A stretch of 64,000 nucleotides of DNA. Origin: Gammaproteobacteria bacterium LSUCC0096 (GTDB lineage Bacteria; Pseudomonadota; Gammaproteobacteria; Pseudomonadales; Litorivicinaceae). The first letter of the stretch is position 1. The number at the start of each line of letters is the position of its first letter. The position numbers were made by a program, and so were the translations under genes. Below are positions 12,913-52,813 of the stretch, piece after piece. Location: the NCBI GenBank assembly GCA_008087055.1, contig VIEA01000001.1, positions 1,240,014-1,304,013 on the forward strand, written 5' to 3'. Under the pieces are notes generated by a model. That model saw nothing but the letters and a program-made list of their open reading frames with translations, made no database searches and was not told the DNA's origin.

Positions 12913-14166
12913 ATGACAATGCTGAATTGGGACGCGTTTAACGAACCAGAAGAGCAAATCGCCCCACCACCGGTCAAGGCGAAATCCGAAGCACCGCAGC
13001 AGCAGCTGGCAATTGAGCCTGAAGCTGTTGCTGAAGTAGCCGACACAACGCGCTACGAGCCAACGGGTTCAGCTGCTTATGAAGCAGCACAAAAGGCACT
13101 TGAGAACTTAGATGTTGCTCCAGGTCTTGAAGAGCTTGAGATGGGCGCTGATCGTGTACAGGTGGATCAAAAGCGCATGATCAATTGCCGTGCTGATTTG
13201 AACCAGCTCGTACCATTCAAGTATGAGTGGGCATGGACCAAGTATTTGGATGGTTGTGCGAACCACTGGATGCCACAAGAAATCAACATGACGCAGGATA
13301 TTGCGTTGTGGCGCTCAAACGATGGTCTTTCAGAAGACGAGCGGAAGATTGTGATGAGAAACCTAGGGTTCTTTTCAACCGCCGACTCGTTGGTTGCGAA
13401 TAACCTTGTTCTTTCGATTTATCGTTTGGTAACAAACCCTGAATGTCGTCAGTACCTTCTCCGTCAAGCGTTTGAAGAAGCGATTCATACACATGCGTAT
13501 CAATACTGCATTGAGTCGCTGGGCATGGATGAAGGTGAAATCTTCAACATGTACCGTGAAGTACCGGCTGTCGCGAAGAAAGCAGCCTGGGCACTGAAGT
13601 ACACGCAAGCGATTGGTAACCCACAGTTCCAGACAGGGACTGTTGAAAATGACCAAGAGTTGTTACAGAACTTGATTGCGTTCTACTGCGTACTCGAAGG
13701 CCTTTTCTTCTATTGTGGTTTCTCGCAGATCCTGTCGATGGGTCGTCGTAACAAAATGACTGGTGTTGCTGAGCAGTTCCAGTACATCTTGCGTGATGAA
13801 TCCATGCACGTGAATTTCGGTGTGGATGTCATTAACCAAATCAAGAATGAAAACCCACAGCTTTGGACTGAAGAATTCCAAGCCAAGATGACACAAATGA
13901 TTCTTGAAGGTTTGGCTCTTGAGATTGAATACGCACGTGACACGATGCCACGCGGCGTCTTGGGCATGAACGCACAGATGATGGAAGAGTATTTGAAGTT
14001 CATCACCAACCGTCGTTTGACCCAGATTGGTCTGTCTGAGCAGTTCCCTGGTGTGGAAAATCCATTCCCATGGATGAGTGAAATCATGGATCTCCGGAAA
14101 GAGAAGAACTTCTTCGAAACCCGGGTCACTGAGTATCAGGTCGGCGGCGCGCTGTCCTGGGACTAA
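12913..14166 (+). CDS. nrdB: Ribonucleoside-diphosphate reductase beta subunit, class Ia
   Basis: NrdB houses the diiron-tyrosyl radical cofactor. The segment EEAIHTHAY carries a Glu, a His ligand and the Tyr in the E-x-x-H-x-x-x-Y spacing of the E. coli radical site. The second ligand set lies in [10 protein letters not shown]. At 417 aa it is longer than E. coli NrdB because of an N-terminal extension rich in Pro, Glu and Ala, a trait shared with Pseudomonas-type NrdB. AAGGAG lies five bases before the ATG. A terminator follows at 14188. Confidence 0.97.
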
Positions 14167-26570: not shown

Positions 26571-28094
26571 TCAGTGCGCGACTTTAGCGCGTTGAAATAA
26601 ATCATCGGTCATCAGCGAACCAAGCACTGCGACAAGACCTAACACCAATACGGGGAAGCCAGGAAGTCCCTGAAGCAGAAGACCTACAGCCGCTGCAACA
26701 ATCACGGCAACCATGATGAATGCACGCTGCTGTGTTGGTTTAGCAACCATCACAAATCCAGCAACTGTGGCTATCAGAAGGCCCCAAGACAATACTGCTT
26801 GTGAACCAATCATCGCTTGAAGCGATGCGATTGCATCAGCCTCAAGTAAGCGTGTCATTTGATTCGGTGCCAGTTGTCCACCAGCAGCAACGATCGCCTG
26901 CATGCTTTGATGTTCATGAAGCGCAATCAAGCTTCCAAAATAGTTCGACGCGGGATGCATCGCGGCAAATAAAAGCGTCGCCGCACCAATCGCAAACAAC
27001 ACCTGTTTGATCCGCTCAGGAGATGCATTTTGACGCACGATATCGATACCGACGGCGAGAAGAATAATCATGCCAAGCACAATCATCTGCCAGAAGGTAT
27101 TCAACTGCGCTAGAGTCAATCCGTTGTTGATAAGTTTCAAGAGAATGACACCCAAGAAGGTTCCGAGGATTGATCCACGACCACCAAAGAGTGACGTACC
27201 GCCAATGACCACTGCTGCGATTGCATCCAATTCCCACATTTGTCCGTAGTCACTCTTGGCGTAAGGCGCGCGCCCCAAAAACATCAACGCACCAAAAGCA
27301 GCGGTGAACGAGCAGATCACATAGGCGAGTGTTTTATACAGACGAACATTGATGCCTGCTTGACGCGAGCCTTGCTCATTAGAACCAATCGCATAGGTAT
27401 ATCGGCCAAGCTTTGTATGTTTAACGATCAAGCCAAGCACAATAAAGAACGCAATGAAGATGACCAGACTCATTTGGAATGTTCGGAAATATTCGAGCCA
27501 ATTGGCATCGACCCACTGTCCAAGTGGCATCAAGAAGTCTGGCAAGGTTCCATCTTTATATCCCTGGCGAAGCGGAGACAAGGGGTTATAACGACCAAAG
27601 AAATCAAACAGCGAATCAAGCTTCGGCGTCGCCTGCGCACCTGTTGTTAGGTGGCCCGTACCGCGCCATATCGAAAGGCCCGCCAAGGTGACAATGAACG
27701 CAGGCATCCCAAACCGGGCGACCAGCGTGCCATGAATTAAACCGATCGAGAGCCCAAGGCCTATCCCGAATAGAACGGCAAGAACCGGTGGAAAGCCCCA
27801 ATATGAAGCAACGTACCCTGTCAGCGCTGCTGTCATACCCATGACAGAGCCAACAGACAAATCAATCCCAGCAGTCAGAATCACCAGCGTCATACCGCCC
27901 GCAATCACTCCAAGTGCTGCTGAGTTATTCAAAATCGTCATCAGATTGGATGGATGGAAGAATGAACGTCCATCGGTTACTAATTCAATCGCAATCGCGA
28001 GAATCACCACCGCCAGAAGAGCACCAGACCAGTCTTTCTTAAAGTAGCTCGCTAATAGTTGAGCAAACCGATCGTAGAAGGTTCTGTTATCCAC
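26571..28094 (-). CDS. frcC: Fructose-type ABC transporter permease (FrcC-like) with long C-terminal extension
   Basis: The first 360 or so residues are a typical ribose/xylose/fructose-class permease: GGMTLVILTAGIDLSVGSVMG, GMPAFIVTLAGLSIWRG, and AIAAVVIGGTSLFGGRGSI. About 140 more residues follow, with roughly three further membrane segments (around 365-385, 435-455, 460-500) and a soluble stretch between. Usual members are 320-400 aa, so 507 is long. GTG start with AGGGG upstream. It pairs with FrcB and FrcA. Confidence 0.85.
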   Translation of the reverse strand: MDNRTFYDRFAQLLASYFKKDWSGALLAVVILAIAIELVTDGRSFFHPSNLMTILNNSAALGVIAGGMTLVILTAGIDLSVGSVMGMTAALTGYVASYWGFPPVLAVLFGIGLGLSIGLIHGTLVARFGMPAFIVTLAGLSIWRGTGHLTTGAQATPKLDSLFDFFGRYNPLSPLRQGYKDGTLPDFLMPLGQWVDANWLEYFRTFQMSLVIFIAFFIVLGLIVKHTKLGRYTYAIGSNEQGSRQAGINVRLYKTLAYVICSFTAAFGALMFLGRAPYAKSDYGQMWELDAIAAVVIGGTSLFGGRGSILGTFLGVILLKLINNGLTLAQLNTFWQMIVLGMIILLAVGIDIVRQNASPERIKQVLFAIGAATLLFAAMHPASNYFGSLIALHEHQSMQAIVAAGGQLAPNQMTRLLEADAIASLQAMIGSQAVLSWGLLIATVAGFVMVAKPTQQRAFIMVAVIVAAAVGLLLQGLPGFPVLVLGLVAVLGSLMTDDLFQRAKVAH

Positions 28095-28122
28095 AACACA
28101 CCCCTGAAGTTTTAAATAGAAG

Positions 28123-28150
28123 AAAAACGCCCCGGAAGAATTTCCGGGGC
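28123..28150 (-). terminator. Intra-operon terminator between frcB and frcC
   Basis: On the minus strand GCCCCGGAA pairs with TTCCGGGGC (9 bp, 4-nt loop) and GTTTTT follows. It lies 8 nt after the frcB stop and likely allows partial read-through to frcC, giving more binding protein than permease. Confidence 0.85.
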
Positions 28151-28157
28151 ACAGGTA

Positions 28158-29102
28158 TTACATACCGATCAGCTTTTTGTACTCAGCTGATGTTTTTGGT
28201 GTCACAAGGAATGTTCCAGTATCAATACGCTTTGATACAGTTTCACCTTTTGCTGCAGCAACTGCAGCTTTCACGCCTTCATAGCCCATCTTGTAAAGCA
28301 TCTGCGCAGTATCGACGTGAACCCAACCTTGATCCATCGCGACGATTGCATCAGTCGCACCATCAAAGCCAACAAGCTTCACATCGCCGGCACTGTAACC
28401 CAGGTTTTCCAGGGCTGCTTTCGCGCCCATGGTGCCGCCATCCCATGCGTTCACAACCATTTTCACATCAGAGTGCTTGTTAAGGAGTGCTTCAACACCA
28501 GCTTGCGCTTGGTTTGAATCCCACTCTGTTGGAACGATCAAAATTTCTGAGTTAGGACGTGATGCCTTGAAACCTTTCATGAAGCCATCGCGACGCTCTT
28601 GACCAGTCGATTGCGCTTGGTTACCCGTCACATAGATAATTTTGTCACCGTCTTTGATGAGTTTCGCCGCTTCTTTACCTTGGATCTCGGCTACTGCTTC
28701 GTTGTCTGTTGCAACAAATGACGTGACTTCAGCGCCAGACACACCGGTATCAACAGCAACAACAGGAATACCTGCATCCATAGCAGCCTTCACAGCTGGC
28801 GCAATACCTGATGAATCAACAGGAGCAACTGCGATCGCGCTAACGCCCTGCGAGGTTAGGTTTTCAAAAACTTCCAACTGAGATGATAGGTCACCTTGGA
28901 ACGCTGGACCCACAGTAATGAGTTTCGCGCCAACTTCTTTAGCCGCGTCAGCAGCACCATTGTTGATCATGATCCAACCAGCATTTGTTGCTGATTTAGT
29001 GATGTAGCCCACAGTGATCTTACTGTGACCGCCAGCCAATGCTGATAGAGAGACAGAAGCGGCAACAGCGCCAGCAACTAGAATCTTTGCGAATGATTTC
29101 AT
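28158..29102 (-). CDS. frcB: Fructose-type ABC transporter periplasmic binding protein (FrcB-like)
   Basis: This ribose-class (family 4 type) sugar-binding protein has a signal peptide (residues 1-23, SLSALA-GG), then two alpha/beta lobes. Motifs include FENLTSQGVSAIAVAPVDSS, AVDTGVSGAEVTSFVATDN and NAWDGGTMGAKAALENLG. Length is 314 aa. Identification as fructose-specific rests on the frc-like neighbours (single-domain ATPase, ROK repressor), so the sugar is an inference. Confidence 0.87.
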   Translation of the reverse strand: MKSFAKILVAGAVAASVSLSALAGGHSKITVGYITKSATNAGWIMINNGAADAAKEVGAKLITVGPAFQGDLSSQLEVFENLTSQGVSAIAVAPVDSSGIAPAVKAAMDAGIPVVAVDTGVSGAEVTSFVATDNEAVAEIQGKEAAKLIKDGDKIIYVTGNQAQSTGQERRDGFMKGFKASRPNSEILIVPTEWDSNQAQAGVEALLNKHSDVKMVVNAWDGGTMGAKAALENLGYSAGDVKLVGFDGATDAIVAMDQGWVHVDTAQMLYKMGYEGVKAAVAAAKGETVSKRIDTGTFLVTPKTSAEYKKLIGM

Positions 29103-29262
29103 CGAGTTATCCTCTTTGCATTTATGTTTATTGGTCCCGCTTTCTACGCGGTTGACGTTAATGTCTCAAGATTGATGGATTGCTGTCAATAAATAAATTC
29201 ATTTGATTTAATTATTCAAAGTGTTTAGATTCGTCCCATAGTCATAACAACAGAGACATCTT
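29103..29262. promoter_or_regulatory. Divergent frcB / frcA control region
   Basis: This 160-bp gap drives frcB (minus) and frcA (plus). It is A/T-rich around 29185-29225, where TAAAT-N7-ATTTA forms a short dyad compatible with a ROK repressor site. No exact consensus can be assigned. The likely ligand-responsive regulator is FrcR, encoded behind frcA. Confidence 0.45.
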
Positions 29263-30066
29263 ATGAAATACGTTCTCGAGACTCACGGACTCACCAAACA
29301 TTACGGCGGCGTCCATGCACTCAATGACGCTGACTTCTTTCTAGAACCAGGCGAACATGTTGCCGTGGTTGGAGATAATGGCGCTGGTAAGTCAACGTTT
29401 GTGAGAAACATCACAGGTGTTGAACAACCAACCGATGGACGCATCGTTTTCTACGGAGAAGATGTCAGCTTCAGTTCGCCACTCGATGCACGCGAAGCGG
29501 GTATCGAAACGGTTTACCAAAATCTTGCCCTTGCCGATCACTTAGACGTGCCGGCCAACATTTTCTTAGGCCGAGAGGACGCATATGACGCAATCAAGAT
29601 TCCAGGACTCCCCTTTTCGATTCCGCTTGGTCCGTTTGCTTGGATGAAAGCAGGGTCCATGCGCGAACACGCGACCGAGCTCTTAGAAAAAACCGGAGTC
29701 AAAATTCCAGATCTATCTGAATCACTCGCCGGAATGTCAGGTGGTCAGCGCCAGTGTGTCGCGATTGCACGCGCAGCCGGCTGGGGCGAGAAGCTCATCA
29801 TCATGGATGAGCCAACAGCAGCCCTCGGGATTCAAGAAACGACACGCGTTGAGAACATTATTCGTGGGTTAAAGGAACAAGGAATCCCTGTCATCATTAT
29901 CTCCCACAACCTTCGCCAAGTATTTAACTTGGTTGATCGGATCTGGGTATTCCGACAAGGACGGATTGTTGGCAACAAAAAGACCTCAGAAACAGAACCC
30001 AACGAAATCGTATCAATGATCACAGGTCTCGACCAAGGCGTTCACGATAACGCGAGCTACATCTGA
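29263..30066 (+). CDS. frcA: Fructose-type ABC transporter ATP-binding protein (FrcA-like)
   Basis: This single-domain sugar ABC ATPase has Walker A GDNGAGKST near residue 37, the Q-loop in TVYQNLALADHLDV, signature MSGGQRQCVAIARA, and Walker B IIMDEPTAALG. At 267 aa it has one nucleotide-binding domain, as FrcA does, rather than the two fused domains of RbsA/XylG, so it should work as a homodimer. It is transcribed away from frcB and overlaps frcR by 1 nt. Confidence 0.9.
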   Translation: MKYVLETHGLTKHYGGVHALNDADFFLEPGEHVAVVGDNGAGKSTFVRNITGVEQPTDGRIVFYGEDVSFSSPLDAREAGIETVYQNLALADHLDVPANIFLGREDAYDAIKIPGLPFSIPLGPFAWMKAGSMREHATELLEKTGVKIPDLSESLAGMSGGQRQCVAIARAAGWGEKLIIMDEPTAALGIQETTRVENIIRGLKEQGIPVIIISHNLRQVFNLVDRIWVFRQGRIVGNKKTSETEPNEIVSMITGLDQGVHDNASYI

Positions 30067-31253
30067 TGCAGTCGCGCACCGTTCAGTCTCGCGGATCGAA
30101 TCAAGTCGCCGTAAGGCAGTACAACGAACGGCTGGTTTTACAAACGATTCGCCTGAACGGTCCACTGCCGAAAGCTGAGCTCGCGCGCCTGATTGGCCTT
30201 ACTCCTCAAACAGTGACTCACATTGTTAGAGACCTTGAAGCAGACGGTCTTTTAGTTCGTGGAGATCCTGAGCGCGGACGCGTCGGACAGCCATCAGTTC
30301 CATTTGATTTGAACCCCGATGGCGCACAGTCCATAGGCATTCATATTGGGCGACGATCGACTGAGATTGTTCTGATCAATCAGATTGGTACCATTTTGGC
30401 CAAACTAAATACGGTTTACGCATACCCGGAACCCGAAGCAATTTTAGATTTTATTAGCTCAAGCTATCGATCGCTCATTAAACGTAAATCGTGTCACGCG
30501 GAGAGGCTCATGGGTGTCGGAGTTTGCGAACCTGGCAATATCGCGGGCTGGCAGCAGCTCTTGGGCGCACCCTCTGACATCCTTGAATCATGGGAATCCA
30601 TTAATTTAAGTGATGCGATTGAACAAGCGATCGGCGTCACCCCCCTATTTTGCAACGACGCATCGGCGGCGTGTGGAGCTGAACTCCTATTCGGCCAGGG
30701 GCGACATTACGCCAACCACCTCTACACCTACATTGGATCCTTTATTGGCGGAGGACTTGTTCTCGATGGCAACCTCGTCATCGGCCGCGGCGGAAATGCA
30801 GGCGCGATCGGTTCGCTCCCGCTAGGACCACGGAGCAAAGACCAACTCATTGATCGGTCGAGTCTACTCCAACTCGAAGAGGCTCTCGTCTCTTCAGGAC
30901 TCGACCGCACAACACTTTGGAAGGATTCCAATGGATGGGAAGAGCATCGAGACCTCGTAGCGACTTGGATTACCCAGGCAGCTCCCGGGATCGCAATGGC
31001 CGCCCTCTCAGCAACAGCGCTCGTGGAACTGGACGCATTGATTATCGATGGCGCTTTTCCTGACTGGGTTAAAGCTGAGCTAGCGACAGCAATCGAGCAG
31101 GCCTCTGACAACCTCAATTGGGAAGGAATTGAGAGACCGATTCTCGTGGAAGGGACTTGCGGATTCCATGCCCGCGCACTTGGGGGCGCAGCGCTTCCAC
31201 TGCTCTCACAGTTTGCTGCAGATCACCAGAGTTTAATGAAAGCACCTGCCTGA
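30066..31253 (+). CDS. frcR: ROK-family transcriptional repressor (FrcR-like)
   Basis: The N-terminus is a winged helix (LPKAELARLIGLTPQTVTHIVRDLEADGLL) near residues 36-66. The rest is the ROK sugar-kinase-like domain (SIGIHIGRRSTEIVL, FIGGGLVLDGNLVIGRGGNAGAIG). This NagC/XylR-type layout senses a sugar or sugar phosphate and represses uptake genes. Coupled to frcA (ATG shares one base with its stop), it most likely controls the divergent frc region. Length is 395 aa. Its 3' end is overlapped by an antisense sRNA candidate. Confidence 0.88.
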   Translation: MQSRTVQSRGSNQVAVRQYNERLVLQTIRLNGPLPKAELARLIGLTPQTVTHIVRDLEADGLLVRGDPERGRVGQPSVPFDLNPDGAQSIGIHIGRRSTEIVLINQIGTILAKLNTVYAYPEPEAILDFISSSYRSLIKRKSCHAERLMGVGVCEPGNIAGWQQLLGAPSDILESWESINLSDAIEQAIGVTPLFCNDASAACGAELLFGQGRHYANHLYTYIGSFIGGGLVLDGNLVIGRGGNAGAIGSLPLGPRSKDQLIDRSSLLQLEEALVSSGLDRTTLWKDSNGWEEHRDLVATWITQAAPGIAMAALSATALVELDALIIDGAFPDWVKAELATAIEQASDNLNWEGIERPILVEGTCGFHARALGGAALPLLSQFAADHQSLMKAPA

Positions 31254-31366
31254 AACGGCAGTGTTGACGAAAGTCCTCGAGCATAAATTCGACATCCCTG
31301 TCGATGCCCGAATCCTTCCTAAAGTTCCCAATCCTTCGGGATACCGGAGACCGGCGTTTGTCCTAT
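31235..31366 (-). ncRNA. Candidate CsrA/RsmA-sequestering small RNA (RsmZ/CsrB type)
   Basis: On the minus strand about 130 nt carry seven GGA motifs (near 31361, 31332, 31326, 31318, 31314, 31296 and 31275), against about two expected by chance. One sits in a perfect hairpin, TCGACA-GGGA-TGTCGA (31289-31304). Its core ACAGGGATGT matches the CsrA SELEX core ACARGGAUGU exactly. Another is in TCCC-GAAGGATT-GGGA (31327-31342), with AAGGAT in the loop. An extended -10 promoter lies just upstream, and CACTGCC/GGCAGGTG with CTTTCATT (31263-31235) may be the terminator, though it is not strong. csrA is present in the window at 48327. Ends are estimates. Confidence 0.6.
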
Positions 31367-31372
31367 TTCTTA

Positions 31373-31401
31373 ATTATATCACGATATTTTTTTGGACAAA
31401 A
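31373..31401 (-). promoter_or_regulatory. Extended -10 promoter of the RsmZ-like sRNA
   Basis: The minus strand has TGA-TATAAT (31381-31373), a perfect -10 with an upstream TG. TTTTGT at 31401-31396 is a poor -35 at 17-bp spacing. Just upstream GGAC-N5-GTCC forms a small dyad. I see no TGTAAG-N6-CTTACA GacA box. The rest of the 31254-31557 gap is very A/T-rich and includes the peroxiredoxin promoter. Confidence 0.55.
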
Positions 31402-31557
31402 AGTCCGCGCAGACCAAAACAGCGAAGATATTGATTATAATTAACTATCGAAATGATAATTAAATACCATGTCAATCTATCAAATAATCCTTGATTAACA
31501 TATTTATATAATCATAATTTCAATATCGATTAATTTTATGTATCAAAGGATCTCAAG

Positions 31558-32100
31558 ATGAAGCAAGGACAACCAGTTCCACAAGTCACTTTCAAAACAC
31601 GTGTACGCGATGAGTCCATTGGTGGCGATAATCCATTTCGCTGGCAGGACGTCACAACGGATGACATCTTCAAAGGAAAACGCATTCTAATCTTCTCCCT
31701 TCCCGGCGCTTTCACACCAACATGCTCGACATTCCAGGTTCCAGGCTTTGAAGCCAACTACCAAACAATTCGAGACATGGGAATTGACGAGATCTACGTC
31801 GTTTCAGTGAACGATACTTTTGTCATGCGCAAATGGTTGATCGATCAAAACGTCTGCCACATCAAATTCATCCCTGATGGCAATGGCCACTTTACTCAGG
31901 GTCTCGACATGCTAGTCGACAAATCGAACCTCGGATTCGGGAGCAGATCATGGCGATACGCAGCGGTTATCGATAACGGCGTGATTGAACGCTGGTTTGA
32001 AGAGCCAGGTCGCGTGGATAACTGCGAAACGGACCCCTATGGCGAAACATCTCCAGAATCTGTCATGAATTACCTCGAAACAGTTGCAGTTGAGGCGTAA
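31558..32100 (+). CDS. Peroxiredoxin (Prx5/hybrid-type AhpC/TSA family)
   Basis: This thiol peroxidase reduces H2O2 or organic peroxides. The active-site motif PGAFTPTCS places the peroxidatic Cys at residue 56, and the middle has IYVVSVNDTFVMRKW, as in Prx5 proteins. Other cysteines (near residues 100 and 163) could resolve. No glutaredoxin domain is fused at the C-terminus, unlike Haemophilus-type hybrids. Length is 180 aa. AAAGGA lies well before the ATG. The A/T-rich upstream region shows no clear OxyR site. Confidence 0.9.
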   Translation: MKQGQPVPQVTFKTRVRDESIGGDNPFRWQDVTTDDIFKGKRILIFSLPGAFTPTCSTFQVPGFEANYQTIRDMGIDEIYVVSVNDTFVMRKWLIDQNVCHIKFIPDGNGHFTQGLDMLVDKSNLGFGSRSWRYAAVIDNGVIERWFEEPGRVDNCETDPYGETSPESVMNYLETVAVEA

Positions 32101-32153: not shown

Positions 32154-32531
32154 ATGCGAACCAACAGAATCACTCTACTTGTCGAGGATCTCGACCAGGC
32201 CATCCAATTTTATACAAACGCATTTGGGCTCTCTCTGATTGAGGATAGCCAGATCTCAGAGAGCAAACGGATCGTCCGAATTGCGACATCAGATGAAGAT
32301 GTGACCCTTAACCTTGCTACGCCAAAATTAGGAGATGAAGATCTTGTCGGCCGCCAGGCAGGCCAACGTGTGCTGGTCTTCATTGATACCAGCAATCTGG
32401 AAGCCGACCTTGCGCGGTTTACAGACAATCGCGTTGACATTATTGATGGCCCACGCACCGAGTCATTTGGTCACTGCGTTTTAGTCAAAGACCTTGTCGG
32501 CAATACATGGGAGTTTGTGGAGCGAATTTAG
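32154..32531 (+). CDS. VOC-family (glyoxalase-like) protein
   Basis: This 125-aa protein has one vicinal-oxygen-chelate repeat pair: TLLVEDLDQAIQFYTNAFGL at the N-terminus and FGHCVLVKDLVGNTWEFVER at the C-terminus, with the metal-type Glu in WEFVE. The reaction is unknown (glyoxalase, dioxygenase or fosfomycin-type enzymes share the fold). It begins 54 nt after the peroxiredoxin gene and its ribosome site is inside the terminator stem, so it may be expressed by read-through. Confidence 0.8.
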   Translation: MRTNRITLLVEDLDQAIQFYTNAFGLSLIEDSQISESKRIVRIATSDEDVTLNLATPKLGDEDLVGRQAGQRVLVFIDTSNLEADLARFTDNRVDIIDGPRTESFGHCVLVKDLVGNTWEFVERI

Positions 32532-48326: not shown

Positions 48327-48521
48327 TTAAGAATTAGACGATTCGACTTCGTCAGAAGCTTCCGTGCGCTCGACGAGCAATTCTTCTCGCAATACAGGCA
48401 CATCACGTGGCGCATCCACGCCGACGCATATCTGCTGCGTTCCTTTGATCTTGACTACGGTGATTCGGATGTCATCGCCAATACGGATCGATTCATCCAC
48501 GCGTCGTGTCAGTACAAGCAT
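48327..48521 (-). CDS. csrA: CsrA/RsmA carbon storage regulator
   Basis: CsrA binds GGA motifs in mRNA leaders and controls translation and stability; small decoy RNAs titrate it. The 64-aa protein starts [18 protein letters not shown], then [16 protein letters not shown], and [11 protein letters not shown]. The RNA-binding Arg of the last strand is present; the usual His before it is Leu here. ATG at 48521 has GAGGTGG before it; the frame to 48551 was rejected. Candidate promoter with a HexR-like site at 48674-48702. Confidence 0.95.
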
Positions 48522-51343: not shown

Positions 51344-52813
51344 ATGCTATACATTGCCCGAGTGCTGATAATGGCACTAATCCCTGGGCTTGCGTTTGCT
51401 TCCGACACTCCGGACAACGTAATTGATCTAACCAACCATACTGCAGGCTTTCTTGCCATTGCCGCTTTTGTCATTGCATATGCATTGGTTATGGCTGAAG
51501 AAGCCATTCATCTCCCAAAATCCAAACCTGTTTTAATCGCGGCAGGCCTCATCTGGCTGATTATTGCAATTTCCTATCAGGGGACTGGATACGAACACCT
51601 AGCTGAAGAAGCCGTACGTCATAATTTGCTTGAATTTGCTGAACTGATGTTGTTCCTACTTGTCGCGATGACTTACATCAACGCGATGGAAGAGCGGCGC
51701 TTATTTGAGTGGCTACGAGAGAAACTGATTGCATCAGGATTGGGCCTTCGTTCGCTCTTTTGGTTAACAGGGATCCTCGCGTTTTTCATTTCACCCATTG
51801 CGGACAACTTAACAACAGCCCTCTTAATGTGCGCCGTTGTCATGGCAGTTGGCGGGAACAATTCTCGGTTTATCGGTCCTTCCTGTATCAACATTGTTGT
51901 TGCCGCGAACGCAGGCGGTGCATTCAGTCCGTTTGGAGACATCACAACACTTATGGTCTGGCAAAAAGGTGTGCTTGGATTCAGTGAATTTTTCACTTTG
52001 TTTGTGCCAGCTGCTGTTAACTTTCTGGTTCCCGCCGCAATCATGTCGGTCGTTCTACCTAAAGAAAAACCAGAGGCCACGGGGCAATCCGTTGAACTCA
52101 AGCGCGGAACCTGGCGCATTGTGTGGCTGTTTTTGGCAACAATAGCGACCGCAGTTTCATTCCATAACTTCCTTCACCTGCCGCCTGTGATTGGGATGAT
52201 GTTGGGACTTGGTTATCTCAATATGTTTGGCTACTACTTGGTCAAGACGCTGCCTAAATCGCTCGATCGTAAACGGAAAATCTATGAACAACGTGGCGAT
52301 GTCGAGGCTATTCAGCGTCTCGGTGAAGTTGTCCCCTTTAATGTCTTTTCAAAAGTTGCCCGCGCCGAATGGGATACCCTTCTCTTTTTCTACGGCGTTG
52401 TATTGTGCGTCGGTGGATTGGGGTTCATGGGATACTTGTCGCATGCCTCAGAGCTTCTCTATGGTGACTTCGGACCAACTATTGCGAACGTCACAGTCGG
52501 AATTCTGTCCGCCATCGTTGATAACATCCCTGTGATGTTTGCTGTCTTATCGATGATGCCCGACATGTCCCATGGCCAATGGCTACTTGTCACCCTAACG
52601 GCAGGTGTTGGCGGATCATTGCTATCTATTGGTTCTGCAGCAGGTGTTGCCTTAATGGGACAAGCCAAGGGAAAGTACACATTCTTCGGTCATTTGAAGT
52701 GGTCGTGGGCTGTTGCACTCGGATATATCGCGAGTATCATTGCTCATATGTGGATTAACGCAGACCTGTTTCACGTAACAGTCGAAACCGCTCGAGTGAC
52801 CACAGGACACTAA
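51344..52813 (+). CDS. nhaD: NhaD-type Na+/H+ antiporter
   Basis: NhaD exchanges Na+ or Li+ for H+, important in marine and haloalkaline bacteria. The 489-aa protein starts with a signal-like helix, then AIHLPKSKPVLIAAGLIW. The ion-transport motif ISPIADNLTTALLMCAVVMAVG and INIVVAANAGGAFSPFGD are clear, with a matching second half (IVDNIPVMFAVLSMMP). Follows the DUF2788-like gene. Confidence 0.93.
   Translation: MLYIARVLIMALIPGLAFASDTPDNVIDLTNHTAGFLAIAAFVIAYALVMAEEAIHLPKSKPVLIAAGLIWLIIAISYQGTGYEHLAEEAVRHNLLEFAELMLFLLVAMTYINAMEERRLFEWLREKLIASGLGLRSLFWLTGILAFFISPIADNLTTALLMCAVVMAVGGNNSRFIGPSCINIVVAANAGGAFSPFGDITTLMVWQKGVLGFSEFFTLFVPAAVNFLVPAAIMSVVLPKEKPEATGQSVELKRGTWRIVWLFLATIATAVSFHNFLHLPPVIGMMLGLGYLNMFGYYLVKTLPKSLDRKRKIYEQRGDVEAIQRLGEVVPFNVFSKVARAEWDTLLFFYGVVLCVGGLGFMGYLSHASELLYGDFGPTIANVTVGILSAIVDNIPVMFAVLSMMPDMSHGQWLLVTLTAGVGGSLLSIGSAAGVALMGQAKGKYTFFGHLKWSWAVALGYIASIIAHMWINADLFHVTVETARVTTGH

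Follow-up and report, generated by a model that had tools for sequence, protein, structure and literature searches.

A conserved, structured RNA element with putative CsrA sites in the marine genus "Ca. Halomarinus"

On sequence grounds, an element on the minus strand of the LSUCC0096 genome is a real, conserved structured RNA gene that appears to form a sequence family of its own, outside RsmY, RsmZ and CsrB by sequence model. It quite probably functions like these RNAs, as a stand-alone CsrA-sequestering small RNA. A CsrA-decoy-type sRNA had been proposed here by a sequence-only reading, and the proposal is now supported by GGA motifs invariant in 12 homologs, by compensatory changes, by a conserved promoter-like sequence on the same strand and by neighbouring genes that change from locus to locus. 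The element was studied in a window, the whole stretch of 64,000 nucleotides that was analysed, which corresponds to positions 1240014-1304013 of contig C1 in the LSUCC0096 genome (G000; 1,935,310 bases in 4 contigs). LSUCC0096 is placed in the OM252 clade, genus "Ca. Halomarinus", sister to Litoricola (excerpts of PMC8269220).

The minus strand from 31401 to 31235 holds seven GGA motifs (first G at 31363, 31334, 31328, 31319, 31315, 31297 and 31276), which is the number the sequence-only reading had given. Its other observations were also borne out by the fold and the sequence: two of the seven lie in predicted hairpin loops, within UCCCGAAGGAUUGGGA (31341-31326) and within UCGACAGGGAUGUCGA (31304-31289), the latter closed by a 6-bp stem, and both a SELEX-type core, ACAGGGATGT (31301-31292, minus strand), and an extended -10 element with TATAAT are present. 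ACARGGATGT occurs twice in the window against 0.25 copies expected from base composition, the second copy lying at 52533 on the minus strand, antisense within a 489-aa ORF. Seven GGA in 167 nt compare with 4.7 ± 1.4 in dinucleotide shuffles (P = 0.11), and on this comparison the tally was dropped as proof of a decoy RNA; against mononucleotide shuffles P was 0.012, and at least seven GGA occur in 0.5% (plus strand) and 0.7% (minus strand) of the 167-nt segments of the whole sequence. The number of GGA by itself is weak and unconvincing; the constituent motifs are real. The earlier claim that no coding ORF explains the region agrees with the ORF list, in which no ORF of at least 60 aa overlaps the core (31277-31368), and by eye no open frame is kept in register across the 12 homologs.

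When 57 genomes were searched with the DNA of the region, 10 congeners showed 86-93% identity, and the divergent G020 and G006 showed 71% and 79%; six of these loci begin to match at query positions 66-87, past the end of frcR. A covariance model, R1, was built from 12 sequences (alignment A1), and 13 sequences, including locus L007, which is cut at a contig end and stands outside A1, were aligned to R1 as A4; the weak DNA-search loci L014-L020 were left unused. Together these delimit a conserved RNA core at 31277-31368 (minus strand). With 150 candidates scored per genome, R1 found one strong copy per genome, at 69-120 bits, in 13 of the 22 genomes of the genus, and homolog records by name include HIMB30 and an uncultured Litoricola sp. 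Among 293 genomes of the order, strong scores came from genus members alone, and three matches in other genera reached 21-22 bits; with 13 candidates scored in each genome, weak relatives may have escaped this search. Scanning 84,980 species genomes for a pattern of 20 specified bases returned 25 stretches, 12 of which score at least 69.5 bits with R1 and 13 of which do not. Neither the order search nor the pattern search with R1 scoring found a homolog outside the genus, the sister-genus flanks of nrdB, the VOC gene and csrA gave at most 10.3 bits, and plasmids, phages and viral contigs contained no match to the element.

Nine genus genomes gave no strong R1 hit. In seven of them (G003, G005, G010, G011, G012, G013 and G016) neither the VOC gene (E <= 1e-12) nor nrdB (E <= 1e-30) was found, so the absence of the RNA is uninformative. 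The contig of G001 stops, by eye, a few bases before the RNA promoter. In G014 (L059 / L137) the nrdB-VOC interval is intact and holds no RNA, which counts against the decoy reading. This assembly, 87% complete, also yielded no csrA2 (see below) and no match to the neighbour gene of csrA2; co-loss of the RNA and csrA2 was considered and, being a single case in such an assembly, was not used as proof.

Alignment across related genomes, a check that the earlier reading had suggested, showed that the GGA loops are conserved; the refuting outcome that this reading had named, loops not conserved in relatives, was not found. Six GGA of the window sequence fall within the aligned core, and five of them are invariant in the 12 A1 rows; the sixth, at 31328 in the stem of H2, varies and, with that at 31276, makes up the unconserved two of the original seven. 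Every one of the 15 unpaired GGA columns is invariant, whereas of the 25 unpaired columns outside GGA 6 are (Fisher P = 1.4e-6, a guide only, because the A1 rows are related). Site 1 is single-stranded, within AGGACA, at 31361-31363. Hairpin H1, GCCGGUCUCCGGU (31343-31355), has no GGA. Hairpin H2 (31326-31341) carries site 2 (31332-31334) in a loop that reads A-(A/U/G)-GGA, so that the GGA is invariant and the base before it is free. A single-stranded linker, UAGGAAGGAUUC (31310-31321), holds sites 3 and 4, and GGAAGGAUUC within it is identical in all 12 rows. The long hairpin H3 (31277-31311) presents site 5 (31295-31297) in an ACA[N]GGAUGU apex; in the A1 rows it takes the form ACA-N-GGA-(U/G)-G, where N can be any of G, A, U and C, and L007 has GGAC there. 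All of these features lie on the minus strand. Site 2 is spaced 15 and 19 nt from sites 3 and 4, and site 4 is 18 nt from site 5; spacings near 18 nt are favourable for a CsrA dimer. Judged by their aligned bases, the H2 and H3 loops fit the published CsrA-type pattern A(N)GGAX, in which the base before GGA is free (excerpts of PMC4005645), and come close to the SELEX consensus RUACARGGAUGU (excerpts of PMC7652899).

The predicted structure was evaluated on its 25 base pairs in A4. Helix 1, that of H1, is paired in 100% of cells, with one pair changed on both sides; the H2 stem is paired in 93.5% of cells and has one pair changed from C-G to G-C; and three outer pairs of H3 are changed on both sides. 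Overall, 96.0% of A4 cells are paired, against 92.8 in shuffles, and double changes affect 5 of the 25 pairs, compared with 1.3 in shuffles, none of the 500 reaching five. The covariation measure was 0.159, compared with 0.023-0.041 for structures shifted by 1-3 columns; a single double-changed pair arose among these, with the +3 shift. Further pair types numbered 10 versus 9.5 in shuffles, no excess. Fitting to the model biases the A4 counts in favour of the structure; in the unfitted A1, four pairs are already changed on both sides, and RNAalifold gives this alignment a very small covariation term (-0.13). Single-sequence z-scores of the roughly 100-nt core are modest, from -0.9 to -3.2.

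Upstream of the core lies the extended -10 box TGATATAAT (31373-31381, minus strand), which predicts a start near 31366. Twelve bases before it stands the conserved TTTTTGTCC (31394-31402, minus strand), a weak -35 element or an operator half-site. The spacing between TGTC[CT] and -10 bases of the TG(A/T)TA type is constant in all 12 homologs reaching that far, which makes a leftward promoter likely. The TATAAT box is not among the sites listed by a consensus promoter scan, as a good -35 is lacking. At the other end, the weak hairpin H4 with its pyrimidine-rich tail (31261-31235, minus strand), which resembles part of the homologs, is the best candidate and possibly the 3' end. The sole terminator-like site that the scan listed in this region is the H3 hairpin, with 1.0 expected by chance, and the 3'-tail alignment, which excludes L011-L013, contained no strong terminator common to the homologs. 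The GacA/UvrY repeat TGTAAGN6CTTACA was absent from the 300 nt upstream of the 12 homologs (171 and 227 nt in two of them), and the best matches to it had 4-6 mismatches in 12 positions, no better than shuffled sequence, in all 12. The consensus was taken from excerpts of PMC4682653, which also describe an imperfect repeat at csrC. We also observed an inverted repeat, TTTGTCC ... GGACAAA (31357-31401, minus strand), which spans the -10 box and whose core, TGTC[CT]/AGGACA, occurs in 12 of 12 homologs. It could be an operator, or a coincidence of the -35 region with the first putative CsrA site.

The sequence-only reading had placed the RNA antisense to the 3' end of frcR. This does not hold for the core, which lies outside the convergent frcR-like gene of a ROK-family regulator (30066-31253, plus strand); the overlap is limited to H4, at the frcR stop, and this is the sole sense in which the RNA is antisense. 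On the other side, the window has a divergent peroxiredoxin (Redoxin/AhpC-TSA) gene (31558-32100, plus strand) and then a VOC/glyoxalase gene (32154-32531, plus strand), the most constant neighbour, which 10 of 13 loci have upstream in divergent orientation. On its downstream side the RNA is followed by a convergent frcR in three of the 13 loci (the window and two others), a same-strand fructokinase gene in five, a directly adjacent convergent nrdB in two, and a RelE-like gene, a PRK-family kinase gene and a contig end in one each. Since the neighbours change, the RNA looks like an independent unit. The same counts bear on the idea that the element acts in cis as the 5' leader of whichever gene follows, for example fructokinase, whose start lies 152-222 nt further along the same strand in those five loci. 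We consider a leader very improbable, as the core is kept where the next gene is the convergent frcR, or is nrdB (L012, L013).

A sharper competitor is a base-pairing sRNA in which the invariant GGAAGGAUUC would serve as the seed for pyrimidine-rich mRNA sites, CsrA being uninvolved or a helper. The longest unbroken invariant stretch of A1 is indeed this piece of the linker plus the next G, and excerpts of PMC7652899 indicate that some CsrA-binding base-pairing sRNAs also carry at least two GGA. Such an RNA would leave unexplained why GGA with a free preceding base recurs in two separate hairpin loops and near the 5' end, and we rate this reading as improbable. It is most unlikely, finally, that the functional strand is the plus strand, as a 3' UTR or terminator region, or that the element acts as DNA. 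The plus strand does fold (z = -1.9 for the 167 nt, against -3.5 on the minus strand), its z-score is the more negative in 4 of 12 homologs, and the conserved TGTC[CT]/AGGACA repeat across the -10 box would suit a DNA element; against this, the minus strand has the lower folding energy in all 12 homologs and in the consensus (-25.5 vs -14.9 kcal/mol), G-U pairs in H1, H2 and H3 fit the minus strand only, and the extended -10 points leftward. For the CsrA-sequestering sRNA that we favour, we infer the following course: a non-coding RNA of at least about 90 nt, perhaps 130 nt, would be transcribed leftward from the extended -10 promoter as a unit of its own; it would offer five CsrA-type GGA sites, close to the 5' end, in the H2 loop, twice in the single-stranded linker and in the H3 loop; and by binding it would titrate canonical CsrA and/or a linked paralog, CsrA2, off mRNAs.

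CsrA is encoded in 56 of the 57 genomes searched, and LSUCC0096 has two copies, a canonical one (C1:1408056) and the divergent csrA2 in the window (48327-48521, minus strand; PF02599, 73.6 bits). The claim of csrA 17 kb from the RNA thus stood as to a CsrA gene at that place and failed as to its identity, the gene being a second, divergent paralog and not the canonical csrA. Residues aligned to L4 and R44, whose roles are given in a legend of PMC7652899, are kept in both proteins. In three congeners compared, csrA2 identity was 94%, 91% and 94% (the last over 48 residues). The csrA flanks of the sister genus gave no match to csrA2, whereas csrA1 does match there, and the extra CsrA of the sister genus is unlike csrA2. 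In 7 of 13 RNA-bearing genomes csrA2 is on the contig of the RNA, 5.4-26.5 kb off, and in the other six on a different contig; the linkage could reflect synteny and nothing more.

The GacA orthologue of LSUCC0096 lies directly before uvrC (L100:1816-2505, which is C1:543815-544504). It scored 114 of 280 bits against the UvrY/SirA/GacA model, far below the cut-off and from profile position 52 onward, and Pfam found no receiver domain in it at E <= 0.001, while the GacA of the sister genus shows one. The model match begins earlier in G020 and G006, at profile positions 3 and 22, and takes in more of the receiver part, so loss of the receiver is stated for LSUCC0096 only. Of 21 uvrC loci (20 genomes), 8 carry an undivided GacA and 5 a fragmented or partial one; at the other 8, which include those of the RNA-bearing G004, G007 and G017, none was found. 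Two of these 8 (G013 and G001) are contigs whose sequence begins with uvrC, and in G013 a different contig carries GacA. We tentatively raise the possibility, which we think somewhat doubtful, that a CsrA sponge has escaped Gac control: GacA of LSUCC0096 lacks a recognisable receiver, and beside uvrC in several RNA-bearing congeners it is fragmented or was not found, while the RNA, its promoter and, in the same region, the genus-specific csrA2 persist, so that the RNA might be a constitutive or differently switched buffer, largely for CsrA2. Excerpts of PMC4682653 propose BarA-UvrY/GacA as the driver of such RNAs throughout gammaproteobacteria; if confirmed, the element would suggest that a decoy RNA can outlast a decaying BarA-UvrY/GacA module.

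Known RNA families miss the element, as the sequence-only reading had expected of decoy RNAs. At the gathering threshold, Rfam reported one tRNA and nothing else in the whole window; at E up to 10, 801 bases gave one chance snoRNA match outside the element, and four homolog loci gave two weak matches, both outside the element. The covariance models of RsmY (RF00195), PrrB_RsmZ (RF00166) and CsrB (RF00018) had no match at the element, nor any in the LSUCC0096 genome at E <= 0.001 (50 of 91 candidates scored for RsmY); CsrC and RsmX were covered by the all-family scans only. An RsmY-like hit in G020 (28 bits) was rejected as a gene end with terminator-like hairpins. Weaker matches to the RsmY model occurred in G015 (23.6 bits), in G018 (24.2 bits, partial) and in other genera. 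The CsrB model matched in 0 of 25 genomes of the family.

In size class, in GGA placed in loops and linkers, in intergenic position and in a host with more than one CsrA, the element resembles RsmY, RsmX and RsmZ of Pseudomonas; unlike them, it has no covariance match, no GacA palindrome found upstream and no clear terminator. RsmZ of P. fluorescens has eight GGA in 127 nt and a rho-independent terminator (excerpts of PMC4005645), compared with only five conserved GGA here. The GGA hairpin loops recall those of enterobacterial CsrB and CsrC, near the CAGGA(U/A/C)G and ACARGGAUGU types, and H3, with its long stable stem, is unlike most SELEX hairpins, which mostly have at most 4 contiguous pairs (both from excerpts of PMC7652899). 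The element is also much shorter than CsrB, whose model has 356 positions, and has far fewer sites. The Csr sRNAs Pf1-Pf3 of Pseudoalteromonas are likewise reported from marine gammaproteobacteria outside the model organisms, a likeness by description only (PMC9927453, PMC11882849). A partial search of open-licence literature found no published small RNA or CsrA work on Litoricola, OM252 or Halomarinus, and the main text of PMC8269220 makes no mention of CsrA or BarA. CsrA decoy RNAs diverge fast, so known models miss those of new lineages, the present element probably included. The element is directly testable, since it has a covariance model, five invariant sites of putative CsrA binding and hosts in culture (LSUCC0096 and HIMB30; excerpts of PMC8269220), and confirmation would extend Csr control by decoy RNA to a cosmopolitan ocean clade with small genomes.

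The sequence-only reading had also attached meaning to fructose uptake and an Entner-Doudoroff island bordering the locus. The wider comparison does not support this, as fructose genes adjoin the RNA in part of the genus and nrdB is directly adjacent in 2 of the 13 loci. In LSUCC0096 nrdB lies at 12919-14163 of the window, and in G020 and G006 it stands directly beside the RNA. Sugar-transport genes (fructose being the label of that reading; 26571-31253 was examined) separate nrdB from the RNA here, between 14163 and 31253. As nrdB is distant in LSUCC0096 and adjacent elsewhere, the sugar genes seem to have been inserted between nrdB and the RNA, the direction of the change being the one we presume from this comparison.
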